Shown here one piece after another: positions 1 through 21,505 of a DNA stretch of 23,213 nt; within the stretch, counting starts at the first letter, position 1; each line of letters opens with the position of its first letter. This DNA comes from a virus. The notes below the pieces were generated by a model that ran no database searches, was not told where the DNA came from, and saw only the letters and a list, made by a program, of their open reading frames with translations. Both the position numbers and the translations under genes were made by a program. The stretch is taken from positions 1 to 23,213 of the IMG/VR virus record IMGVR_UViG_3300005523_000016, one strand, 5' to 3'.

Positions 1-455
1 CATGCAGGTCTTACATAAGTTGCATGGTAATGTGTTGCACCTTCTGTGAGGCCTCTATACTTGTCCCATTTAATAATGCTCCAAGCAATAGTTTGTGCTT
101 CTACCCATCTGTCTTCATTATTTGGATGATCTTTTTTTCCATCACACCACCAACTAAATTGACACTTATTTCTACGTGGATGCCCATTGCTATCATATAA
201 TCCTTCTTTAACAACTTCACAAATTGTTGTTGGAAATCTTGTATCTCTAACACGATTTAACACCACGTCTGCGACTGCGTATTTATCAGCTAAATTGCTA
301 CTTCTAGCCTCAAAATATATGTTTAAAGCTAAACAATGTTCTTGGGGAAAAGTATCTTCAGGAAAAGTAAATTCTTCATGTCCTTGAGCTGTTGCTTCTA
401 GTGCAATCCACCAAAAAAATGTAATAGCTATAAATGCCTTGTAAGTATGTTTCAT
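1..455 (-). CDS. SleB-type cell-wall hydrolase (endolysin), C-terminus cut by window edge
   Basis: The reading frame opens with ATG at 455 and runs off the left edge; 151 codons are visible and no stop is reached. Residues 1-23 look like a signal peptide: a basic start MKHTYK, a hydrophobic stretch and cleavage after ATA before QG. The mature part starts at about residue 40 with CLALNIYFEARSS, then ADVVLNRV, CQFSWWCDGK and TEGATHYHATYV. These are the hallmarks of the hydrolase_2/SleB family, including the Glu of YFEAR that is the usual catalytic acid. Such proteins cleave the glycan part of peptidoglycan, so the likely role is host lysis after Sec export to the periplasm, an inference. A late-type TTAAATAC motif at 470-477 lies just upstream with SD-like GAGG. 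The gene is truncated only by the window, so the full length is unknown. Confidence 0.85.
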   Translation of the reverse strand, partial: MKHTYKAFIAITFFWWIALEATAQGHEEFTFPEDTFPQEHCLALNIYFEARSSNLADKYAVADVVLNRVRDTRFPTTICEVVKEGLYDSNGHPRRNKCQFSWWCDGKKDHPNNEDRWVEAQTIAWSIIKWDKYRGLTEGATHYHATYVRPA

Positions 456-469
456 AATTGCCTCGTTTT

Positions 470-477
470 GTATTTAA
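470..477 (-). promoter_or_regulatory. Candidate T4-type late promoter for the cell-wall hydrolase
   Basis: The minus strand reads TTAAATACAAAACGAGG just before the hydrolase start at 455. The core TAAATA matches the T4 late -10 element (TATAAATA) in 7 of 8 positions, and the flank TAAATACAA recurs upstream of other late-type genes in this window. A lysis gene under late control is expected. Assigned by eye. Confidence 0.5.
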
Positions 478-512
478 TAATTTTTTAACCTACATTTTAT
501 GTGTAGTTTAAA

Positions 513-656
513 TTATGCACTTAATTTTTTTAAAACTGTTGCAATTTGATCAATCAGCCATTTTTCTTCATCACTAGGTACCCAACTTTGTTCAGGTTCT
601 AATGTATCAAATGTTTCCCACATGGCGTCTTGTTCAACTAAATTTTGTGAATCCAT
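513..656 (-). CDS. Small acidic hypothetical protein, 47 aa
   Basis: A 47-codon frame from ATG at 656 to TAA at 513. Its start overlaps the stop of the 120-aa gene as TAATG, the translational-coupling arrangement seen throughout this window, which is the main reason for calling it. The protein starts MDSQNLVEQDAMWETF and is acidic in its first two thirds, with three tryptophans (WETF, SWVP, KWLI) and a basic tail VLKKLSA. No domain is recognised. It would share the transcript that starts at the promoter at 1050-1078. It may not be conserved; coding is inferred from overlap and composition only. Confidence 0.55.
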   Translation of the reverse strand: MDSQNLVEQDAMWETFDTLEPEQSWVPSDEEKWLIDQIATVLKKLSA

Positions 657-1018
657 TAATTACGCCTCATTCTAGCAATGTCTTTAGCATCTTCTTTCTT
701 ATCTGCAAATATAGGAACCATATTAGACTTATGCATAGTAGCAACACCTAGTAGTTGTCGCTCACCTGAATATACATTACGATCTTTTTGTACAGCAACT
801 CCGTCAATTCTATCACTTGTAGGTATTTTGTTACCAGATGGTGAAGAATAATCAGGCATTGGTGCACGATAATCTTGTGTGGGTTTATTCACACCCATTT
901 TCTTGAGCCACTTTTCGTGTTCTGCTTGTGCCTGCTGTAGCTTTTTAGATTTGGATTGTTTCTGTTTACGACTGTATTGTGTTGTGGTCATGTAAGGACC
1001 CACAAGATGCATAGACAT
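656..1018 (-). CDS. Conserved phage hypothetical protein, 120 aa
   Basis: Begins at ATG 1018 behind an SD-like GGAG (ATGGAGTATAAA) and a sigma70-like promoter at 1050-1078. The N-terminal third (residues 15-45) is rich in Lys, Gln and Arg, as in a short basic coiled helix. The C-terminus holds LLGVATMHKSNMVPIFADKK followed by EDAKDIARMRRN. From memory this Met-His-Lys-Ser-Asn box followed by an acidic helix and a final Arg-rich end recurs in small proteins of marine tailed phages; no function is known to me. A later start at Met10 is possible. It is the first gene of a two-gene unit with the 47-aa ORF. Confidence 0.8.
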   Translation of the reverse strand: MSMHLVGPYMTTTQYSRKQKQSKSKKLQQAQAEHEKWLKKMGVNKPTQDYRAPMPDYSSPSGNKIPTSDRIDGVAVQKDRNVYSGERQLLGVATMHKSNMVPIFADKKEDAKDIARMRRN

Positions 1019-1049
1019 ATTTTATACTCCATAAAGTTATACTATATAC

Positions 1050-1078
1050 TTTATAACGTATAATTTTACATTTGTCAA
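1050..1078 (-). promoter_or_regulatory. Sigma70-like promoter, TTGACA-N17-TATAAA
   Basis: On the minus strand the -35 TTGACA lies at 1073-1078 and the -10 TATAAA at 1050-1055, with exactly 17 bp between. It sits in the gap between the 89-aa gene (stop at 1082) and the 120-aa gene (start at 1018), leaving a leader of roughly 25 nt. This suits early transcription by host RNA polymerase. Confidence 0.7.
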
Positions 1079-1081
1079 CCT

Positions 1082-1351
1082 TTACATATTTTGATCAGAA
1101 TTATCCCAGTGATGTAAATTAGACCTATTGCGTGGTTTCGGTAGTTTTTTACCTTGAAGTTGTGCATATTGTTTAGACCAATCTTTTAATTGTTCTAATC
1201 TATTCACCAGCCAATCATAATTATGATCACCTTCTTGCATTATAGAAAGTTGATCTTCTACATTTTGTTGCATTCTATGGATCCAACTACGCATTTCTGC
1301 AATAGTTGTAGCACTTGTAGAATTATGTCTTTCTGGTAACTTATAAACCAT
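1082..1351 (-). CDS. Hypothetical protein, 89 aa, helical
   Basis: ATG at 1351 follows directly on the stop of the nuclease gene (TAA then ATG), so it is probably translated from the same message. Residues 15-65 form a run of polar and hydrophobic heptads (TTIAEMRSWIHRMQQNVEDQ, then YDWLVNRLEQLKDWSKQYAQ), which suggests a helical hairpin or coiled coil. The tail KLPKPRNRSNLHH is basic. I do not recognise a family. Placement behind a nuclease gene could mean a DNA-related role, but that is only context. Confidence 0.7.
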   Translation of the reverse strand: MVYKLPERHNSTSATTIAEMRSWIHRMQQNVEDQLSIMQEGDHNYDWLVNRLEQLKDWSKQYAQLQGKKLPKPRNRSNLHHWDNSDQNM

Positions 1352-1801
1352 TTAGTCCTCTAATTTAACAATACCTTCGCTTAATAAACGTTCTCTGTTT
1401 GCCATATGAGCGGCTTGGACATCATCTTTATTTTGTCCTTCATATTTTACTGCATGACCTTCTTCTATCATAATTTCTGTAGCCATTCGCCAGCTATCAG
1501 TAGGTGCATGATATACACTAAAATCTCCTAAGATACGACCAAATTTGCCTTTCATATCTTCTCCATTTTTGTTTATACGTGTTCTAAGAACCCCACCGTC
1601 ACCTAGTAATTCGGTTAATCTTTTTTTACTTGCTAAACCAAAAGCTTTTTCTGTAAGATCACGTGTTCTTGATTCAGGAGTATCAATGCCCATTATTCTT
1701 ACTCTCTCGTCTTTTAAAACCACACCAAAACCTAAATCAATATCAACATCTACTGTGTCACCATCAACAATTTTAACTACGGTTGCTTTATATTCATACA
1801 T
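1352..1801 (-). CDS. Thermonuclease-like (SNase-family) endonuclease
   Basis: A single SNase domain fills the 149-aa protein. Residues 8-22 hold the opening VVKIVDGDTVDVDID, with the calcium-binding Asp pattern. R35 and E43 (in VRIMGIDTPES) and R89 (in KGKFGR) fall where staphylococcal nuclease has its catalytic Arg35, Glu43 and Arg87, so the active site appears complete. The family cleaves DNA and RNA to 3'-phosphate ends with calcium. There is no signal peptide, so it should act in the cytoplasm, perhaps on host DNA, an inference. SD GAGGAG precedes the ATG. It follows two small membrane-protein genes and is followed without a gap by the 89-aa gene. Similar genes are known in marine T4-like phages. 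Confidence 0.9.
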   Translation of the reverse strand: MYEYKATVVKIVDGDTVDVDIDLGFGVVLKDERVRIMGIDTPESRTRDLTEKAFGLASKKRLTELLGDGGVLRTRINKNGEDMKGKFGRILGDFSVYHAPTDSWRMATEIMIEEGHAVKYEGQNKDDVQAAHMANRERLLSEGIVKLED

Positions 1802-1811
1802 TTATTTCTCC

Positions 1812-1952
1812 TCACTTAATATATTTTTTCATCAATAAATAAATTGCATAACAGGCAAATAAGTATGCCGTTGCTACACCTACATCAACTAAGTGTTCTC
1901 GCATATGATATATAAATTCTATGCCGGCTTGTACATCACCTTGTGTTTCCAT
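1812..1952 (-). CDS. Small single-pass membrane protein, 46 aa
   Basis: ATG at 1952 lies one base after the stop of the 80-aa membrane protein and has a strong SD (GAGGGAG) inside that gene's last codons. The product starts METQGDVQAGIEFIYHMREH and then has a membrane segment at about residues 23-41 (VGVATAYLFACYAIYLLM), ending KKYIK. A short polar N-terminus, one hydrophobic helix and a basic C-terminus is the layout of many small holin or antiholin proteins. With no homology this is only a possibility. The next gene (nuclease) begins 11 nt downstream. Confidence 0.65.
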   Translation of the reverse strand: METQGDVQAGIEFIYHMREHLVDVGVATAYLFACYAIYLLMKKYIK

Positions 1953-1953
1953 T

Positions 1954-2196
1954 TTATTCTCCCTCTATGTCAACTTCCTTCTGTACCATCGAATCCTCCG
2001 TCATCGTCGATTCTTCGCTCATCACGGGGTCCTCGTCTTTTTTTTTGAAAGTAGAATCAAAATCTAGTGCAGTTACAAAGATTGTTACGGCCGCTAACAT
2101 AGGCATAGTATAAACCATTTTTTCTGTGGCAAATGCTACTGCATATGTAGGCAGTAATATAGCAGTTGCTTTAATGATAGCAAGTTTAAAATTCAT
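1954..2196 (-). CDS. Small membrane protein, 80 aa, acidic tail
   Basis: Begins at ATG 2196 behind an SD-like AAGGTAG and a late-type GATAAATAG motif at 2219-2227. Two hydrophobic stretches, residues 5-22 (LAIIKATAILLPTYAVAF) and 30-44 (TMPMLAAVTIFVTAL), suggest a membrane hairpin. A basic KKK and a strongly acidic tail with many Glu, Asp and Met follow. Family not recognised. A holin-type role is conceivable because it is paired with a second small membrane protein, but the lysis hydrolase lies 1.5 kb away, so this stays a guess. Confidence 0.7.
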   Translation of the reverse strand: MNFKLAIIKATAILLPTYAVAFATEKMVYTMPMLAAVTIFVTALDFDSTFKKKDEDPVMSEESTMTEDSMVQKEVDIEGE

Positions 2197-2218
2197 AATC
2201 TACCTTAGTAATATACTA

Positions 2219-2227
2219 CTATTTATC
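2219..2227 (-). promoter_or_regulatory. Candidate late promoter (GATAAATAG)
   Basis: The minus strand reads GATAAATAGTAGTATA, overlapping the stop codon of the dehydrogenase gene and 23 nt before the next ATG at 2196. It differs from the T4 late octamer TATAAATA at one position. It would start a transcript for the small membrane proteins. Confidence 0.4.
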
Positions 2228-2783
2228 TAAGGTTAGCTTTCATAGGATGGTGCCATATTGCCAATTCAAAAATCTGTATATCTTGAGGTTGATCAATACA
2301 ATATTTTACATTTTTAGCTACTATTTCTGGATCCATTTTTTTAAATATACGTAACATTTTTACCATATCAGTATCAGTCCACCCAGCAATAATATTAGTT
2401 ACTCTACACTTTTGATTGCCGTTATTCATAGTAGTCAAACAAGCTTGTTTCACTCTATTGTGTAATTCTTGTTTATTAATTACATAGGATCCAAATTTAG
2501 ATTTAGTTTCAGGATAGTAACTAGAACTGCCTATATTAACTATAGTTTTTTCCTTATATCTCCAGTCTTGCCAAAATAAATTAAATAATTGTAATTGTGC
2601 ATCTTTAGATTGTGCATTATTAATAAAGATATCAAAATCTTTTGCTTCTTCAAATATTATTTCAGGTTGGTTAATATTATAGCCATTACTTCTGCTATAG
2701 CCAATTACATCATGCTCTTGTCCAAGTAGATCATAGATAGCCTGCCCTATACCTTTTGTATGGCCGGTTATTGCTATTTTCAT
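2223..2783 (-). CDS. Short-chain dehydrogenase/reductase-like protein
   Basis: A compact 186-aa Rossmann protein. Residues 1-14 give the NAD(P)-binding start MKIAITGHTKGIG (TGxxxGxG). NNAQ at about 55-58 replaces the usual NNAG. SSS at about 86-88 and SYVINK (YxxxK) at about 99-104 supply the catalytic Ser, Tyr and Lys, and GWTDTDM matches the PGxxxTxM region. The fold and active site are therefore complete although the protein is short for the family (about 250). Its ATG overlaps the stop of the radical SAM gene as ATGA, so the two are co-translated and may act on one substrate. The substrate cannot be told from sequence. Confidence 0.85.
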   Translation of the reverse strand: MKIAITGHTKGIGQAIYDLLGQEHDVIGYSRSNGYNINQPEIIFEEAKDFDIFINNAQSKDAQLQLFNLFWQDWRYKEKTIVNIGSSSYYPETKSKFGSYVINKQELHNRVKQACLTTMNNGNQKCRVTNIIAGWTDTDMVKMLRIFKKMDPEIVAKNVKYCIDQPQDIQIFELAIWHHPMKANLR

Positions 2784-4468
2784 GCTAAGGCCATTTCCTC
2801 ATTTAAGGATCTAACGTGATTAATTAATTTCAATTCAGTGTGGTAATTATCAATCCATTTACGATTACGTTCATACACAGGTTGAGGAACAACTTTTGCT
2901 GTAAGTATTCCAACAGACTCTAAATGATCGTATCCTAAACTACGTAACCGAGGATAAGCCCAAAAGTTTGTGTTATAACTGAAGTGTCTTTCAAATGCTG
3001 TTTTAGGATGATCTATAAGCATTTTTTCCCATTCAAGTGACATTTCTTGTGCGTCATGCAAATCCATTGTATTATGTTTCCAATAATAGTTAGGATAATA
3101 TTCTAAATGGATACCATAAGGATTGTCTGGCTTTCCGGTAAATGCTGGAGATTTACTATCATTGCCATCAGATACAAAAAATAATTCATATTGTATTTTG
3201 TCTAAGACACGTTGCTCTTGAAACCATCTTGCTGTATTACGTAAACTTTCCCTGGTTTCGCCAGGTAGGCCAATAATCATGCTTGCTAATATGAACACAT
3301 CGTCTTGTGCAACTTCACGCATCCATGTAATTATTTCTTTAATTTTCTCTGGATCTAAACCTTTTCCAGCTAATTTACCAGCTGTATGATCTAAAGTTTC
3401 TACTCCTAAAAATACACCTCGACAACCCATGTCAATCATCTTAGGCCACATTTCTGGATATTTATGAAACATATCAGGTCTACAATAGCTTATCCATTCC
3501 ATCTTAAAAGGTAAACTTTTAATTACTTTATGCATCATATTGATCTTTTCTGGACTATCATTAACAGTATCATCAGTAAGCATATATCCAGTAACACCAA
3601 AATTTTCGTAGTTATAGAGTAATTCTTCTCTTAAACAATCTGCATCTTTTATTAATGTTCCTCTAATATCGTAAAAGCAAAACTTGCAACCAAATCTACA
3701 ACCTTTGCTAATTTCTAAAGGCATCCATTCACCATTTTTTATAGCCATATTGTGTTGAAAATTACCTTTCAATACTTTTGCACCAGTTGATGCCATTTTA
3801 GTTTCATTAATAAAATATATTCCATTTTTTTCGTGTACTTTTTTAGGATCAAGTTCACCATTTAAAAATTCTACTATTGTATCTTCAGCATATCCGTTGA
3901 ATACATAATTTATGTATTTTTGAAATGCTGTAGGAAAATTTGCTTCTGGTCTTGTTTTAAAATGTATTTTGTAAAATAAATCTGTGATAGCACCACCTAG
4001 TATAAATTCTATATCTGGATTGATTTCATGGATACCTTCAAACCAATCATGGACTTTTGCGTGTCTTGTAAACCATAAATTAAAGTCTTGAGCTCTTGGA
4101 TTAAATGTATTAAGCAAAAACGTTGTTGATAGACCTATGTAATAAGTATCTTCGTTTATAAAATTTTCTATATATTGGTGGAAGTTTTCTATTTTTGTAA
4201 ACCAGTCAATAACAACACATTCCCAATCAGGGCAGTTTTCATTAATAGAACTGGCTACAGCATATGGACCCATGTACCGGCTCCAAAATGTATACTTGTT
4301 GTTAGTAGAAATCATTTTGACTTCGTACTTTTCGTTAGCTTTTTCAAGATGTTCTAAATGCTGTTGATTAAATTCATCCTCACTTAAATCTTCAAGAGCA
4401 GACTGTGTGGATCCGGTTATGTCATTATCAAAAATATCATTTAGTAGAATAATTCTTTTTTTACCCAT
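2780..4468 (-). CDS. Radical SAM enzyme, possibly with a B12-binding-like N-terminal fold
   Basis: The 562-aa protein has a radical SAM core at about residues 245-450. SKGCRFGCKFC holds the CxxxCxxC cluster ligands C257, C261 and C264, followed by MLTDDTVNDS, GVFLGVETLD and MIIGLPGET, the strand motifs of the family. Residues 65-215 contain YYIGLSTTF and IEFILGGAITD, which resemble the cobalamin-binding-like domain that often precedes this core, but I see no clear DxHxxG B12 motif. The C-terminal 110 residues may be a substrate domain. The gene is first in an operon with the dehydrogenase (4-nt overlap), behind a sigma70-like promoter at 4493-4521. The reaction is unknown; metabolite or modified-sugar chemistry would suit the partner enzyme. 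Confidence 0.87.
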   Translation of the reverse strand: MGKKRIILLNDIFDNDITGSTQSALEDLSEDEFNQQHLEHLEKANEKYEVKMISTNNKYTFWSRYMGPYAVASSINENCPDWECVVIDWFTKIENFHQYIENFINEDTYYIGLSTTFLLNTFNPRAQDFNLWFTRHAKVHDWFEGIHEINPDIEFILGGAITDLFYKIHFKTRPEANFPTAFQKYINYVFNGYAEDTIVEFLNGELDPKKVHEKNGIYFINETKMASTGAKVLKGNFQHNMAIKNGEWMPLEISKGCRFGCKFCFYDIRGTLIKDADCLREELLYNYENFGVTGYMLTDDTVNDSPEKINMMHKVIKSLPFKMEWISYCRPDMFHKYPEMWPKMIDMGCRGVFLGVETLDHTAGKLAGKGLDPEKIKEIITWMREVAQDDVFILASMIIGLPGETRESLRNTARWFQEQRVLDKIQYELFFVSDGNDSKSPAFTGKPDNPYGIHLEYYPNYYWKHNTMDLHDAQEMSLEWEKMLIDHPKTAFERHFSYNTNFWAYPRLRSLGYDHLESVGILTAKVVPQPVYERNRKWIDNYHTELKLINHVRSLNEEMALA

Positions 4469-4521: not shown

Positions 4522-4530
4522 GTATTTATT
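4522..4530 (-). promoter_or_regulatory. Candidate late promoter (AATAAATAC)
   Basis: AATAAATAC on the minus strand, 54 nt before the radical SAM start and adjoining the -35 of the sigma70-like promoter. It matches the TAAATAC core found before the hydrolase, tail fibre and other late-type genes. Confidence 0.35.
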
Positions 4531-4551: not shown

Positions 4552-4577
4552 AAAAGAGTGCCCGAAGACACTCTTTT
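4552..4577 (-). terminator. Rho-independent terminator with UUCG loop after the porin-like gene
   Basis: Arms 4552-4560 and 4569-4577 pair (AAAAGAGTG with CACTCTTTT). On the minus strand the stem is closed by C(UUCG)G, an exceptionally stable tetraloop, and ends in a U run. It lies 19 nt past the porin-like stop at 4596. On the plus strand the loop would be CGAA, so the structure is best as a minus-strand terminator. Confidence 0.85.
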
Positions 4578-4580
4578 TAC

Positions 4581-4597
4581 AAATACAAATTGTATTT
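4581..4597. repeat. 17-nt inverted repeat at the end of the porin-like gene
   Basis: Arms AAATACAA (4581-4588) and TTGTATTT (4590-4597) are perfect reverse complements around one base. The minus-strand arm together with the stop codon spells CTAAATACAA, the same string seen in candidate late promoters at 19449-19457 and 20691-20699. It lies between the stop codon and the terminator. Confidence 0.6.
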
Positions 4598-5360
4598 AGA
4601 AACTAAATGATACGTGAGCAGTTGGTGTCCAATCTTCAGCATCAATATTATAATTAATATCAGTACCTAAAGTAATACCAGACACATTATGATCATATCC
4701 TAAACCAATGTTTTGAATTAAATCATCTTTGTCACCGTTTGCATAAACCTTTGCACTTGCAATGGTTGTTACACCTTCAAAACCAAGTTTTTCAAGATCA
4801 GTATCATAAGTTACTGCACCACCAAGACCAGCACCACCAACATTAAAGTCAGCAAGTGATGCTCCGATGATTACATTTTCACTATCAAGATTATAATCAA
4901 CAGCACCAGTAATTTTTCCTATTCCTGCTCCTACTGTATATGAACCTTGTAAGTTGCTTAAATCTGTTACATCTGCAGTAACGTCAGTAAAGCCTAAAGC
5001 AATATTGCCAGCACCCATATTGGCCTGCAAACTGTCACTCATTGCTGGTATTGAAAGAGTATGTTCTCCTTCTGCACCAACCCAAACATCACCTTGTTTA
5101 CCCAAAGATAAACCTACCATGTTTACTGTTGTTCCAATGTGCCATTCGTCAATATCAAAGTCACCGCCAGGTACAGCTTTAAGTTCAATGCTACCGTTTG
5201 CTACATTTCCTGCGGCAATGCCTAATGTGAATTCTGTGGTAGCACCCCAGTTGCCTGCATTCGTTTCAGCAACTGTGGATTTAATCTCTCCCGAGAGGTC
5301 TGCGGCATTTGCTGAACCAGCAAAAATAATAGCCGCTAAAGTAATAAATACCATACGCAT
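4596..5360 (-). CDS. Secreted beta-barrel, porin-like outer membrane protein
   Basis: The 254-aa protein opens with a clear Sec signal peptide, residues 1-19 (MRMVFITLAAIIFAGSANA), with cleavage before ADLSGEIKS. The rest alternates Gly-rich, amphipathic stretches such as TEFTLGIAAGN, NMVGLSLGKQG, YTVGAGIGKITGAVDYNL and QNIGLGYDHNVSGITLG. The chain ends in VSFSF, and a C-terminal aromatic residue after alternating hydrophobics is the insertion signal of Gram-negative barrel proteins. This points to a small porin-type barrel of perhaps 12-14 strands. The start is supported by SD AAGGGA. The gene is a single unit: late-type motif and leader hairpin upstream, UUCG terminator downstream. A phage-made barrel could alter uptake or block superinfection; both are inference. 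Confidence 0.75.
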   Translation of the reverse strand: MRMVFITLAAIIFAGSANAADLSGEIKSTVAETNAGNWGATTEFTLGIAAGNVANGSIELKAVPGGDFDIDEWHIGTTVNMVGLSLGKQGDVWVGAEGEHTLSIPAMSDSLQANMGAGNIALGFTDVTADVTDLSNLQGSYTVGAGIGKITGAVDYNLDSENVIIGASLADFNVGGAGLGGAVTYDTDLEKLGFEGVTTIASAKVYANGDKDDLIQNIGLGYDHNVSGITLGTDINYNIDAEDWTPTAHVSFSF

Positions 5361-5386
5361 ATTTCGATTCCCTTCTTTTTATGCTA

Positions 5387-5423
5387 AAAAGTGGGTTGGA
5401 ATAGTTGTTTCCTTCCCACTTTT
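5387..5423 (-). promoter_or_regulatory. Leader stem-loop upstream of the porin-like gene
   Basis: Arms 5387-5395 and 5415-5423 form a 9-bp stem (AAAAGTGGG with CCCACTTTT on the minus strand), extended by AGGAA/TTCC across an AA/AA internal loop. It starts right after the late-type CTAAATAG, so it would be at or very near the 5' end of the mRNA. Because a U run follows, it could alternatively terminate transcripts arriving from the TauD-like gene. Confidence 0.6.
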
Positions 5424-5431
5424 CTATTTAG
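5424..5431 (-). promoter_or_regulatory. Candidate late promoter (CTAAATAG)
   Basis: CTAAATAG on the minus strand, 64 nt before the porin-like start and directly followed by the leader hairpin. It shares the TAAATA core of the other late-type sites here. Confidence 0.4.
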
Positions 5432-12733: not shown

Positions 12734-14344
12734 CTATGCCATATGTCTTAAAGTGAAATCAAATTGATCTGCGTCTGCACCTTCGCCTATTGTTAAATTT
12801 TTGGCATTTATAAGTATACGAGATCCTAACATAGAAGCAGTAAATTCTAATGCTTCTGTTAATGTGGAATTTCCATCATAGATATAATCATCTGAAAAAT
12901 TTACTTCTGATGAACTAATACCTTTATTCCAGTTAAATCTCATAGTACCTCTTCTATGCACAGGACCCGGTGAGTTCTGTGCTGTATATTTGTAATAAAC
13001 TTCTATTGTTCCTGTAGTGCCATCTGCTGGCAAAGCCATAAAAAATGTAGAAGTTAAACGTCCACTAATGCCAGTTGACACTATGTAATTATTAATATAA
13101 TCTTTTGGTCCTTCTACTTCTGGAGGATAAGTTGTTGAATTATAATTTGTATTTACAGTTAAGTCAGCAGTTCTTTGAAAATAATCATTATCACTATGAT
13201 TGCCTACTTTACCAAATTTGATAACACTTACTACAGGATTATGGCTATTTGCATTATCATTTCCTACATATACAAACTTGTTATTTACAGATGAATTTGC
13301 TGTTCCATTATCAATAATTATAGCTTGTTTATTAATATTATCAAAACTTATATTCTCAATTGTGTTGTAACTTGGTCCTCTTATTTGTCCTGCAGATCCA
13401 AGTACTGTGCCAATGCCAAACTTAAATCCATATGCCATGCTATGTATTTTTCCACCATCAAACTGATTATAGCTTGCATCATCATCTGAAAAATAAGCAT
13501 AGGCATAGTTTTCAATATGTATATTTTTAAATATATTATTTTTACAATCTAATGAACCTAAAGATCCACTGCGTAATTTAAAAGCACCATAATCAACTTC
13601 TGTACCATCTCCAAAATTCCAAGTAGCTTTTAGTTTTATATTCCTAAATTCACTATCTCTGCAATTTTGCAGAATAATAGTTCCACCAAACTGGCTATGA
13701 GTAATAGACATATCGCTAATTCTGATGTATTTTGGTTGATTTACGCTTGTGTTTGTACTATCGTCTGAATATGTACCACCGCCTGCACTGGTGCTATTTT
13801 TTGTGTAAAATACACTACTTCCTGTTCCAGTAAGCAATGTTTTACCCATACCATCTCCAACTATGTTAGCATATGGAGGAATATAAATCGGAGAAGTTAT
13901 TAAATATTCTCCAGCAGGAATACTGAGTGTAATATTTTTATTTTCTCCACCTATAGGAGATAAAAATAATTGATCTACAGCTCTCTGTAAAGCATCTGTT
14001 TGATCAGAGCCATCACCTAATGCACCAAAATCTTTAGCACTTACAACATCATCTAGTTTTACTGCAATTGATCTTTTTATAGGCGTGGCTGAAGTTGCAC
14101 CAGTTTGTACATTGTCAGCAGTTCTATAAGTATACTGTCCTACTAATGATAGTATATCACTTTTTGTAGTTAATATTTCAGAATTACCAGTAGCAGGAGC
14201 ACCTTCACTTACACTACCATTACCTATGTACAATTTTTGTTGATCAATAGCCCAACCTAACTCACCACTTGCTAATTGAGGTACACCTGATACATTTGCT
14301 TTACCTCTACGATGTTGAATTCTTGAAATTTGTACAACGGCCAT
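12734..14344 (-). CDS. Tail fibre/tailspike-type protein with beta-helix
   Basis: The 536-aa protein starts with a typical phage fibre N-terminal module: IQHRRGKANVSGVPQLASGE then LGWAIDQQKLYIGNG. Residues about 90-120 contain AKDFGALGDGSDQTDALQRA, the entry of pectate-lyase-3/beta-helix domains. Residues 120-400 show repeating short strands with Asn and Gly turns (RISDMSITHSQFGG, CRDSEFRNIKLKAT, CKNNIFKNIHIENYAY), as in right-handed parallel helices. The C-terminal 110 residues form a separate beta domain. It probably binds or degrades surface glycans during adsorption; no catalytic residues can be named. A late-type CATAAATAC is at 14370-14378 and SD GGAG is present. Confidence 0.85.
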   Translation of the reverse strand: MAVVQISRIQHRRGKANVSGVPQLASGELGWAIDQQKLYIGNGSVSEGAPATGNSEILTTKSDILSLVGQYTYRTADNVQTGATSATPIKRSIAVKLDDVVSAKDFGALGDGSDQTDALQRAVDQLFLSPIGGENKNITLSIPAGEYLITSPIYIPPYANIVGDGMGKTLLTGTGSSVFYTKNSTSAGGGTYSDDSTNTSVNQPKYIRISDMSITHSQFGGTIILQNCRDSEFRNIKLKATWNFGDGTEVDYGAFKLRSGSLGSLDCKNNIFKNIHIENYAYAYFSDDDASYNQFDGGKIHSMAYGFKFGIGTVLGSAGQIRGPSYNTIENISFDNINKQAIIIDNGTANSSVNNKFVYVGNDNANSHNPVVSVIKFGKVGNHSDNDYFQRTADLTVNTNYNSTTYPPEVEGPKDYINNYIVSTGISGRLTSTFFMALPADGTTGTIEVYYKYTAQNSPGPVHRRGTMRFNWNKGISSSEVNFSDDYIYDGNSTLTEALEFTASMLGSRILINAKNLTIGEGADADQFDFTLRHMA

Positions 14345-18070: not shown

Positions 18071-18436
18071 AAACATTTTGAAAACAATATTTTTACCTTC
18101 TCCTTTTGTTATGAAAACATTTTCTTTAAATTTACTTGTCTCTTCAAGATCTGCTATGAATGGCACTAACATAAAATCGTTTTCTAGCATTTCTATTGTT
18201 AATGCACCTTCGTATGCAATAGAAAAAGTTAGTTGCCATACTCTATTACTTCCTAGATCAGTGTCTTGGTATATTATTATAGGATCATCATCTATAGTAG
18301 GATTCACTCTTAACCCTACTGTATTAATTACAGTCATATAATTTTGTTTTTGTCCATAAGCTATTCTATTTTCTTTTGAAACTTTGATATGATTTGTAAT
18401 ATCAACTGTTGTTTCAATAATAAATTTAGTTTCCAT
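18062..18436 (-). CDS. Conserved phage hypothetical protein, about 124 aa
   Basis: I place the start at ATG 18436 (METKFIIETTVDITN), preceded by GGAT at SD distance and overlapping the sulfotransferase stop by 11 nt; ATG 18448 would add four residues. The chain is beta-rich: TKFIIETTVDITNHIKVS, then MTVINTVGLRVNPTIDDDPI. NRVWQLTFSIAYEGALTIEM and DFMLVPFIADLEE follow. Marine T4-like phages seem to encode similar proteins, from memory, without a function. A virion component is plausible. Confidence 0.75.
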   Translation of the reverse strand: METKFIIETTVDITNHIKVSKENRIAYGQKQNYMTVINTVGLRVNPTIDDDPIIIYQDTDLGSNRVWQLTFSIAYEGALTIEMLENDFMLVPFIADLEETSKFKENVFITKGEGKNIVFKMFDK

Positions 18437-19004
18437 ACTTATATCCATATTCTAATACATCTTTAAAATAAAGATCTCGTACAAAATCTACTAATTCTTT
18501 TGTGTAAAGATCTTTATAGTTATATTCTATATTCTTATTTGTAATTGGTAAAGGAACATGGCAATCCAATTTATCTTGTATTTGTTTAAAATCTTCTTCT
18601 AGATTCTCATAACGTAGTATTTTTGTATGAGTGCCAAACCAATCATGTTGTGGTGTGTCTAAGCTATACCAGGCTCTAGCCCAAAGTAAAAAGGGTTGAA
18701 AAGATAAATTTGATGCTTGTTTACTAACCCGTTTTAATAACCAATCCTTGAAATTTTGATTTCCATGATTTGCAAATAGATACCAACTTGCTAATCTTTC
18801 CCAAGGATTTCTAACTACTCCAAATGTATATGTTGTATTTGGAAAATATGTATTAACTTCAACAATATGTCCATGCTTTTTACCTTCAACTGTTTTAAAA
18901 TTTTCATCTAGCCATTGACTTATACTTGTGCCAGCAGTTTTAGGATTATGAATAAAAGTTATATAATAATCAGGAAGGTAACGCATCTTGTACTTACCAG
19001 CCAT
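18426..19004 (-). CDS. Sulfotransferase-family protein
   Basis: ITFIHNPKTAGTSISQWL at about 15-32 is the 5'-phosphosulfate loop of PAPS-dependent sulfotransferases (PKTAGTS, Lys22). FGVVRNPWERLASWYLF at 61-77 is the 3'-phosphate-binding motif with Arg65 and Ser73. KILRYENLEEDF near residue 130 matches the family's third conserved segment. Such enzymes transfer sulfate from PAPS to sugars or other acceptors, so modification of a glycan or lipid is likely (inference). The 192-aa size suits carbohydrate sulfotransferases. ATG 19004 abuts a terminator; ATG 18986 (MRYLPDYY) is an alternative start closer to the family's usual N-terminus. Confidence 0.83.
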   Translation of the reverse strand: MAGKYKMRYLPDYYITFIHNPKTAGTSISQWLDENFKTVEGKKHGHIVEVNTYFPNTTYTFGVVRNPWERLASWYLFANHGNQNFKDWLLKRVSKQASNLSFQPFLLWARAWYSLDTPQHDWFGTHTKILRYENLEEDFKQIQDKLDCHVPLPITNKNIEYNYKDLYTKELVDFVRDLYFKDVLEYGYKYGN

Positions 19005-20709: not shown

Positions 20710-20717
20710 TATAAATA
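20710..20717 (+). promoter_or_regulatory. T4-type late promoter for the lipase gene (TATAAATA, perfect)
   Basis: The plus strand reads TATAAATATG, an exact match to the T4 late octamer, 23 nt before the lipase ATG at 20741 with SD GGAGG between (20729-20733). Confidence 0.65.
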
Positions 20718-20740
20718 TGTGTATAATTGGAGGTGCATAT

Positions 20741-21505
20741 ATGATTACAAAAATGACATTCAAAGAAAGATCTTTATTATTTGCCAAACTTTCTAAAATA
20801 GCATACAATAATATTGATGAAGCAAAGTCGCAAGCAAAAAAATTAAAATTTACCACAACTGAGTTTTATGATAAAGACGGAGCTCAGGCATATAGATTTC
20901 AAAATAAAGATGATTTAGTTATTGCTTGCCGTGGTACTCAACCAACAGAATGGAATGATATAAAAGCAGACCTCAGAGCAATGCCTGTATTAGCTGAAAC
21001 AGTAAGTAGAGTGCATAAAGGCTTTAAAGCTGAAGTTGACGAACTTTGGCCAATGGTATTAGAAGATTTACAAAGAAAAACAAATCAAAACAAAAAGATT
21101 TGGTTTTGTGGACATAGTTTAGGAGCCGCAATGGCTACAATTATGGCAAGCAGATGTCATTTATACAAAGATATAGCACCTGTAGAAGAACTTTATACCT
21201 ATGGCTCACCAAGAGTAGGCTGGAAAAAATATTGCAGATCCTTAGGTGTAACTCATAGACGTTGGAGAAACAATAATGATATTGTTACAAAGGTTCCTTT
21301 TAACATAATGGGTTATGCTCATGATGGTAAAGAATATTATATCACCAGCAAGAATAGAATAGGAAAGCCAAGTATAGGTGATTGGTGGAATGGTGTATGG
21401 CAAGGATTAAAACAAGGAAGATTTGATTCTATAGGTGATCATGACATTCAAGCTTATTATGATAACATTGATAAAGCTTTATCAGATGTTCCTCCACACT
21501 ACTAA
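20741..21505 (+). CDS. Class 3 (alpha/beta-hydrolase) lipase
   Basis: I start at ATG 20741, 8 nt after SD GGAGG; the ATG at 20717 lies within the promoter octamer. The 254-aa protein has the lipase_3 plan: IACRGTQPTEWNDIKADL (oxyanion RGT at 64-66), WFCGHSLGAAMA with nucleophile Ser126, YTYGSPRVG, Asp180 in RNNNDIVTKVP and His194 in GYAHDGK. The triad is complete, so an active lipid esterase is likely. No signal peptide is seen, so it acts in the cell unless released at lysis. It is the only plus-strand gene in the window, meets the oxygenase gene tail to tail with overlapping stops, and may be an acquired gene used late to damage membranes. Confidence 0.88.
   Translation: MITKMTFKERSLLFAKLSKIAYNNIDEAKSQAKKLKFTTTEFYDKDGAQAYRFQNKDDLVIACRGTQPTEWNDIKADLRAMPVLAETVSRVHKGFKAEVDELWPMVLEDLQRKTNQNKKIWFCGHSLGAAMATIMASRCHLYKDIAPVEELYTYGSPRVGWKKYCRSLGVTHRRWRNNNDIVTKVPFNIMGYAHDGKEYYITSKNRIGKPSIGDWWNGVWQGLKQGRFDSIGDHDIQAYYDNIDKALSDVPPHY

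Follow-up and report, generated by a model that had tools for sequence, protein, structure and literature searches.

A predicted phage family of minimal 16-stranded outer membrane porins with a late-type promoter box and a recurrent leader hairpin

The window, that is the whole 23,213-nucleotide stretch of IMG/VR virus record IMGVR_UViG_3300005523_000016 that was analysed, carries on its minus strand a gene for a 254-aa protein that is bracketed by a late-type promoter box, a leader hairpin and an intrinsic terminator (Table 1). A preliminary description, made from the letters alone, had proposed a porin-like outer membrane protein with a Sec signal peptide and a terminal VSFSF, and these elements are indeed found. 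The N-terminus, MRMVFITLAAIIFAGSANA-AD, has its AxA site at residues 17-19, and the predicted signal peptide forms a helix of low confidence in the AlphaFold model. Both the signal peptide and the C-terminal aromatic beta-signal expected of a porin are thus present in the window protein, and they recur in its relatives. An AxA site lies inside the first 20 residues in all 23 family members listed, and none of the 23 aligned members has a cysteine beyond residue 19. A profile search retrieved at least 142 relatives, of which the best 80 were examined; the 77 that were complete, with a stop codon, all end in F-x-F.

Table 1. Features of the porin locus (positions are those of the window).
Feature	Position	Strand	Basis
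Late-type promoter box CTAAATA, a T4-like late box variant	5425..5431	-	Motif; place kept in relatives
Leader hairpin, 10-bp outer and 4-bp inner stem	5386..5424	-	-17.1 kcal/mol, z -4.67; same place in relatives
Shine-Dalgarno-like GAAGGG	5370..5375	-	Read from sequence
Phage porin CDS, 254 aa	4596..5360	-	ATG start
Sec signal peptide, residues 1-19, predicted cleavage between ANA and AD	5304..5360	-	AxA site
21-residue loop between strands 5 and 6, residues 88-108, L3 place	5037..5099	-	DSSP, both models
C-terminal strand with beta-signal TPTAHVSFSF (F-x-F end)	4599..4628	-	Sequence; F-x-F common to relatives
Intrinsic terminator hairpin, UUCG loop, T-rich tail to ~4545	4552..4577	-	-16.4 kcal/mol, z -6.37

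The preliminary description had also placed the gene in a private late transcription unit, and the layout of box, leader hairpin and UUCG-loop terminator that underlies this claim is present and conserved in relatives, the word late being drawn from the T4 type of the box. Taken alone, the hexamer TAAATA is not enriched in the window over shuffled sequences (41 found against 54.9 expected), so that the support for the box lies in its conserved position. The leader hairpin is predicted to lie at or close to the 5' end of the transcript. A generic terminator scan of the window did not list the hairpin downstream of the gene, probably because its T-run lies partly within the stem. On the same strand, the gene that follows, encoding a radical SAM protein (2780-4468), has its own ATAAATA box at 4523-4529, and the porin gene therefore appears to occupy a unit of its own. 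This radical SAM protein has 562 aa and was matched by tblastn in none of the 50,697 phage records; it is followed by a short SDR-like gene (2223-2783), and the pair is kept in some relatives.

Across the family, a T4-type late box recurs at a conserved place upstream of the porin gene. Of 49 relatives, 23 have its strict form, NATAA[AC]TA, at a distance of 55-95 nt before the gene start (200 shuffle rounds gave a mean of 1.6 and a maximum of 7), and 32 have in that interval a looser form that includes the CTAAATAG of the window, the CTAAATA variant (shuffles: mean 2.8, maximum 9). TAA-N-TA is invariant at the box site in 17 aligned leaders, namely those of the 23 members of alignment A1 in which a box is visible. 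The best stem starts between -1 and 8 nt past the box in 27 of the 32 members that have one. Stems with 7 or more pairs are found in the leaders of 46 of 49 members and terminator-like hairpins 3' of the gene in 36 of 49, both being counts without a shuffle control; a recognisable box is absent from 17 of the 49 and a recognisable terminator from 13. When folding was compared with shuffled sequences, z was below -2 in 19 of 23 leaders. Moreover, 14 porin leaders folded with a mean of -16.9 kcal/mol, as compared to -6.6 kcal/mol for 34 other late-box leaders of the same contigs (Mann-Whitney p 7e-6, a value that overstates independence, the porin leaders being mutually related). This comparison covers members with a fitting box; the window and its sister contig L002 were among those left out, since their CTAAATA box lies outside the pattern used.

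The sequences of the stems vary (AAAGGGCAAG, GTGGGCAAGAA and AGGCGATGA are examples), so that what recurs at this place is structure. RNAalifold on a MAFFT alignment of the leaders returned 0 consensus pairs, probably owing to misalignment of stems that differ in sequence, and the conclusion on the hairpin rests on per-sequence folding and position. The hairpin was also considered as a terminator of the upstream gene, a role that may apply to a few T-rich cases; most stems, judged by eye, have no T-run after them.

Structure prediction had been suggested for the proposed barrel, and two AlphaFold models were obtained. The window protein (23-sequence alignment) gave a pLDDT of 82 and a pTM of 0.72, and L036, a relative 38% identical to it (49-sequence alignment), gave 88 and 0.76. 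In both predictions 16 antiparallel strands close a barrel, as in general porins, and general porins are the top matches of both. In VIA, the top match is OmpU, with Z 19.9 for the window model and 20.9 for the L036 model, each at 2.9 A over 230 residues. A Foldseek search of the PDB with the window model placed OmpU first (1.5e-8), followed by the R. blastica porin (5.4e-8), whereas with the L036 model the R. blastica porin was best and its entries filled 7 of the first 9 rows; the TM-scores were modest for both models, at about 0.6. A search of predicted viral structures with the porin model returned weak matches only, some of which are named porins. The secreted beta-helix that would have spoken against the earlier claim, or any other non-barrel fold, is supported by neither model.

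In general porins the constriction loop L3 connects strands 5 and 6, and it is at this place that the single long loop of the phage protein is found. The conservation of this long loop exceeds the average of the remaining loops; the other inter-strand gaps in the window model comprise 2-6 residues. If the usual porin orientation is assumed, conservation is higher in the outward half, loops included, than in the inward one (mean entropy 0.95 versus 1.33), and the outward half carries 28 acidic but 2 basic residues per protein.

The family has so far escaped recognition in databases. Pfam and PHROGs hold no family for the window porin, and searches of NCBIfam and of PDB sequences were equally without a useful family. 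When 49 members were compared with Pfam, one touched OMP_b-brl and one Porin_3, both near 1e-3 and neither convincing, and none matched Porin_4 (PF13609) at E 0.01. No title or abstract on this family was found in open-access PMC among those on T4-like, pelagic or roseobacter phage porins. A single-sequence search of IMG/VR confirmed 44 relatives, and the profile search extended the family to at least 142 contigs. The other 22 members of the 23-sequence alignment share 38-78% identity with the window protein, and dN/dS values of 0.23-0.35 in five close pairs suggest that the gene is under purifying selection. The larger alignment, A3, comprises 44 of 48 non-redundant proteins and 5 others; L058, L068, L110 and L115 were omitted by eye as near-duplicates. 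The window itself belongs to a virus record and the relatives lie on viral contigs, one of them with a T4-type gp23, so the porin is phage-encoded. In GTDB genomes, 110 candidate stretches fit the pattern and none was confirmed as a relative. Judged by sequence, the window gene is a member of an unrecognised family that is confined to phages in the databases searched.

A link to host porins emerges at the level of profiles. The preliminary description had called for homology searches against host porins and other phage genomes: the first of these revealed a remote relationship, but tblastn with the window protein and one relative as queries matched none of the 50,697 phage records. Profile-profile comparison with 19 Rhodobacteraceae porins of the Porin_4 type gave 97.2% at full length and, for the mature parts only, 90.6% (E 1.3e-6, 132 columns). 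Among the controls, reversal yielded 0.3 and 1.1%, none of eight column shuffles exceeded 0.2%, and the four block shuffles lay at 2.6-34.6%, which indicates that generic strand repetition accounts for some of the signal. The host set represents 19 of 23 loci, as L221, L223, L230 and L235 gave no ORF by the rule used. The phage proteins have a median length of 263 aa as compared to 331 aa, and are thus some 70 aa shorter. Their acidity is not special, since the Rhodobacteraceae porins contain on average 13.9% acidic and 4.0% basic residues versus 15.3% and 1.0% in the phage family. The phage family is therefore taken, from these profiles, as a remote and shortened relative of the general porins of the host. 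A recent capture of a host gene was rejected in view of the GTDB result; when 61 genomes from the family to which the HIMB11 genome belongs were searched with profile A3, no more than scraps appeared, in 5 of them (best E 0.049), and an initial search of two genomes for host relatives returned nothing.

Several observations bear on the phages, a group of large uncultured marine viruses, and on their hosts. The T4-type gp23 encoded on the 230-kb contig of L020 shares 66% identity with the gp23 of PA5oct-like Pseudomonas phages, and the NrdB of the window 65% with that of Pelagibacter phage Mosig. A permuted tmRNA was detected with Rfam in the flanks of 17 of 23 loci, lying at most about 4 kb upstream of the porin gene; 16 of the 17 match the alpha_tmRNA model (one cut by the contig end), L024 matches the beta model, and none was found in the window. 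Examples are located at L033:4243-4566, L016:4082-4428, L017:5488-5869 and L029:4580-4980, and their predicted tags include sequences such as ANDNYAPEMALAA. The 134-kb viral contig L025 carries ctaC, ctaG and ctaD (149-3052; Pfam COX2, CtaG_Cox11 and COX1); COX1 is present in one of 28 contigs, and L025 may be chimeric. Its COX1 is 82% identical to that of Planktotalea (Rhodobacteraceae). The alpha-type tmRNAs and this COX1, together with the gp23 and NrdB data, indicate that the hosts of the family are probably Alphaproteobacteria, at least in part Rhodobacteraceae, an assignment that does not extend to the window's own clade, whose GC content is 33%. The URO-D of sister contig L002 is uninformative on the host, as its full-length matches share 28-37% identity and 14 of 15 alphaproteobacterial genomes match.

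Other genes near the family porins were also recorded. Immediately upstream of the porin gene lies that of a cupredoxin of the plastocyanin/azurin family (L008:5427-5855, L025:5324-5761), the N-terminus of which is signal-like, and the cluster of this cupredoxin occurs in 20 of the compared loci; three phage records match, all of them cyanophage plastocyanins, and the protein may be a respiratory counterpart of the electron-transfer genes of cyanophages. A Hydrolase_2 cell-wall hydrolase with an N-terminal signal-like stretch, a candidate exported endolysin, is also encoded (L008:10335-10817, L025:10437-10973), and its cluster likewise occurs in 20 of the compared loci. Elsewhere in the window are genes for a tail-fibre-like protein with an Mtd_N and a pectate-lyase-like domain (12734-14344, minus strand), a sulfotransferase (18426-19004, minus strand) and a class 3 lipase (20717-21505), the last on the plus strand, opposite to most others.

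The explanation that best accounts for these data as a whole, and that we consider reasonably probable, is a phage-specific outer membrane porin, produced late from a single-gene unit, with short loops and permeable to solutes, that dilutes the porins of the host. The protein, with about 235 mature residues, would be exported by Sec and then inserted by the host BAM machinery as a 16-stranded barrel of the general-porin type. Its residence in the outer membrane is very probable and its pore activity likely. The unit would probably be read late by phage-modified host polymerase. Placing a hairpin at the extreme 5' end is an established way of making an mRNA stable, as in the ompA leader; by analogy, the hairpin at the transcript start probably shields the mRNA from 5'-end-dependent decay, which is proposed to result in the synthesis of much porin, and the chances that it does stabilise the mRNA appear evenly balanced. 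Once in place, the porin would form an open, cation-favouring channel that keeps or raises solute permeability, and would dilute host porins, the large surface loops of which are receptors of other phages. As to the main benefit for the phage, solute supply is quite conceivable, while receptor hiding or superinfection exclusion is a rather weaker candidate, as is any other benefit.

The protein may alternatively be an auxiliary nutrient porin that takes no part in exclusion and by which the phage takes control of the import of a limiting solute. This tentative possibility agrees with the general-porin fold and the L3-type loop retained in both models, with the metabolic genes near family porins (cupredoxin, cox genes, URO-D, DoxX and aldolase) and with the viral OmpL that, according to PMC8115048, lies beside amtB in marine Bacteroidetes viruses; however, the immediate neighbours in the window, TauD-like and radical SAM genes, suggest no solute, and no transporter was recognised adjoining the window porin. 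Somewhat doubtful is a role in surface remodelling, in which the short-loop barrel would replace or mix with host porins and so deny rival phages their receptors or keep progeny off cell debris. Its loops of at most 6 residues except for the L3-type one, in a protein about 70 aa shorter than the host family, would fit such a role, and porins are also carried by temperate coliphages, with nmpC reported in P7 (PMC6906374) and NmpC in a defective E. coli K-12 prophage (PMC11148124). Yet late expression is late for exclusion, and the higher conservation of the presumed outward side suggests a positive binding role instead of a mere absence of loops. A virion or lysis component, that is an exported barrel that aids release or rides in the particle, is improbable despite the Hydrolase_2 gene found within a few kb at many loci, since a Sec signal peptide is unusual in T4-like virion proteins and, at the loci inspected, the genes around the porin are nrdA/nrdB/glutaredoxin, nuclease and metabolic ones, with no structural gene recognised adjoining it.

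Returning to the short-loop porin that dilutes those of the host, a broader and distinctly speculative scenario, which we regard as unlikely in its entirety, is that large T4-like phages of marine Alphaproteobacteria domesticated a general porin of the host into a minimal short-loop form, delivered late and in bulk from a hairpin-stabilised mRNA, by which, with infection still under way, receptor-bearing porins are swapped for a receptor-poor pore. If this were true, the outer membrane itself would be remodelled by a virulent phage. The family suggests that phages manage outer membrane permeability and surface identity during infection, and the short-loop barrel may serve as a useful minimal 16-strand porin.

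The general 16-stranded porins of R. blastica (1PRN), R. capsulatus (2POR) and V. cholerae (OmpU, 6EHB) resemble the phage porin in their 16 strands, in having a long loop between strands 5 and 6 and in a structural match over the full length; they differ in having 289-320 residues, as compared to about 235 in the mature phage protein with its otherwise very short loops, and identity in the structural alignments listed is 8-18%. The Porin_4 porins of Rhodobacteraceae likewise have a C-terminal F and a signal peptide, and their profile similarity to the phage family exceeds that of shuffled controls, whereas the phage proteins are shorter and have no Pfam match at E 0.01. Among phage-carried porins, Lc of PA-2 is a further coliphage example, and the coliphages that carry NmpC or Lc are temperate. 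In these coliphage cases (NmpC of P7 and the K-12 prophage, Lc of PA-2), too, the outer membrane of the host receives a general porin from a phage; the present family, compared by description and not by sequence, differs in being found in phages only, in its T4-type late box and in its conserved leader hairpin. OmpL is likewise a marine virus-encoded porin, predicted to be functional by its authors, but in the account of PMC8115048 it is linked to glnK-amtB and Flavobacteriales, unlike the window family, again a comparison by description and not by sequence. The earlier cases cited here concern temperate coliphages and one group of marine Bacteroidetes viruses, as compared to at least 142 viral contigs in the present family. 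Phage-carried porins such as NmpC and OmpL are thus already known, and what is new is a phage-dedicated family of minimal 16-stranded porins with a conserved leader.
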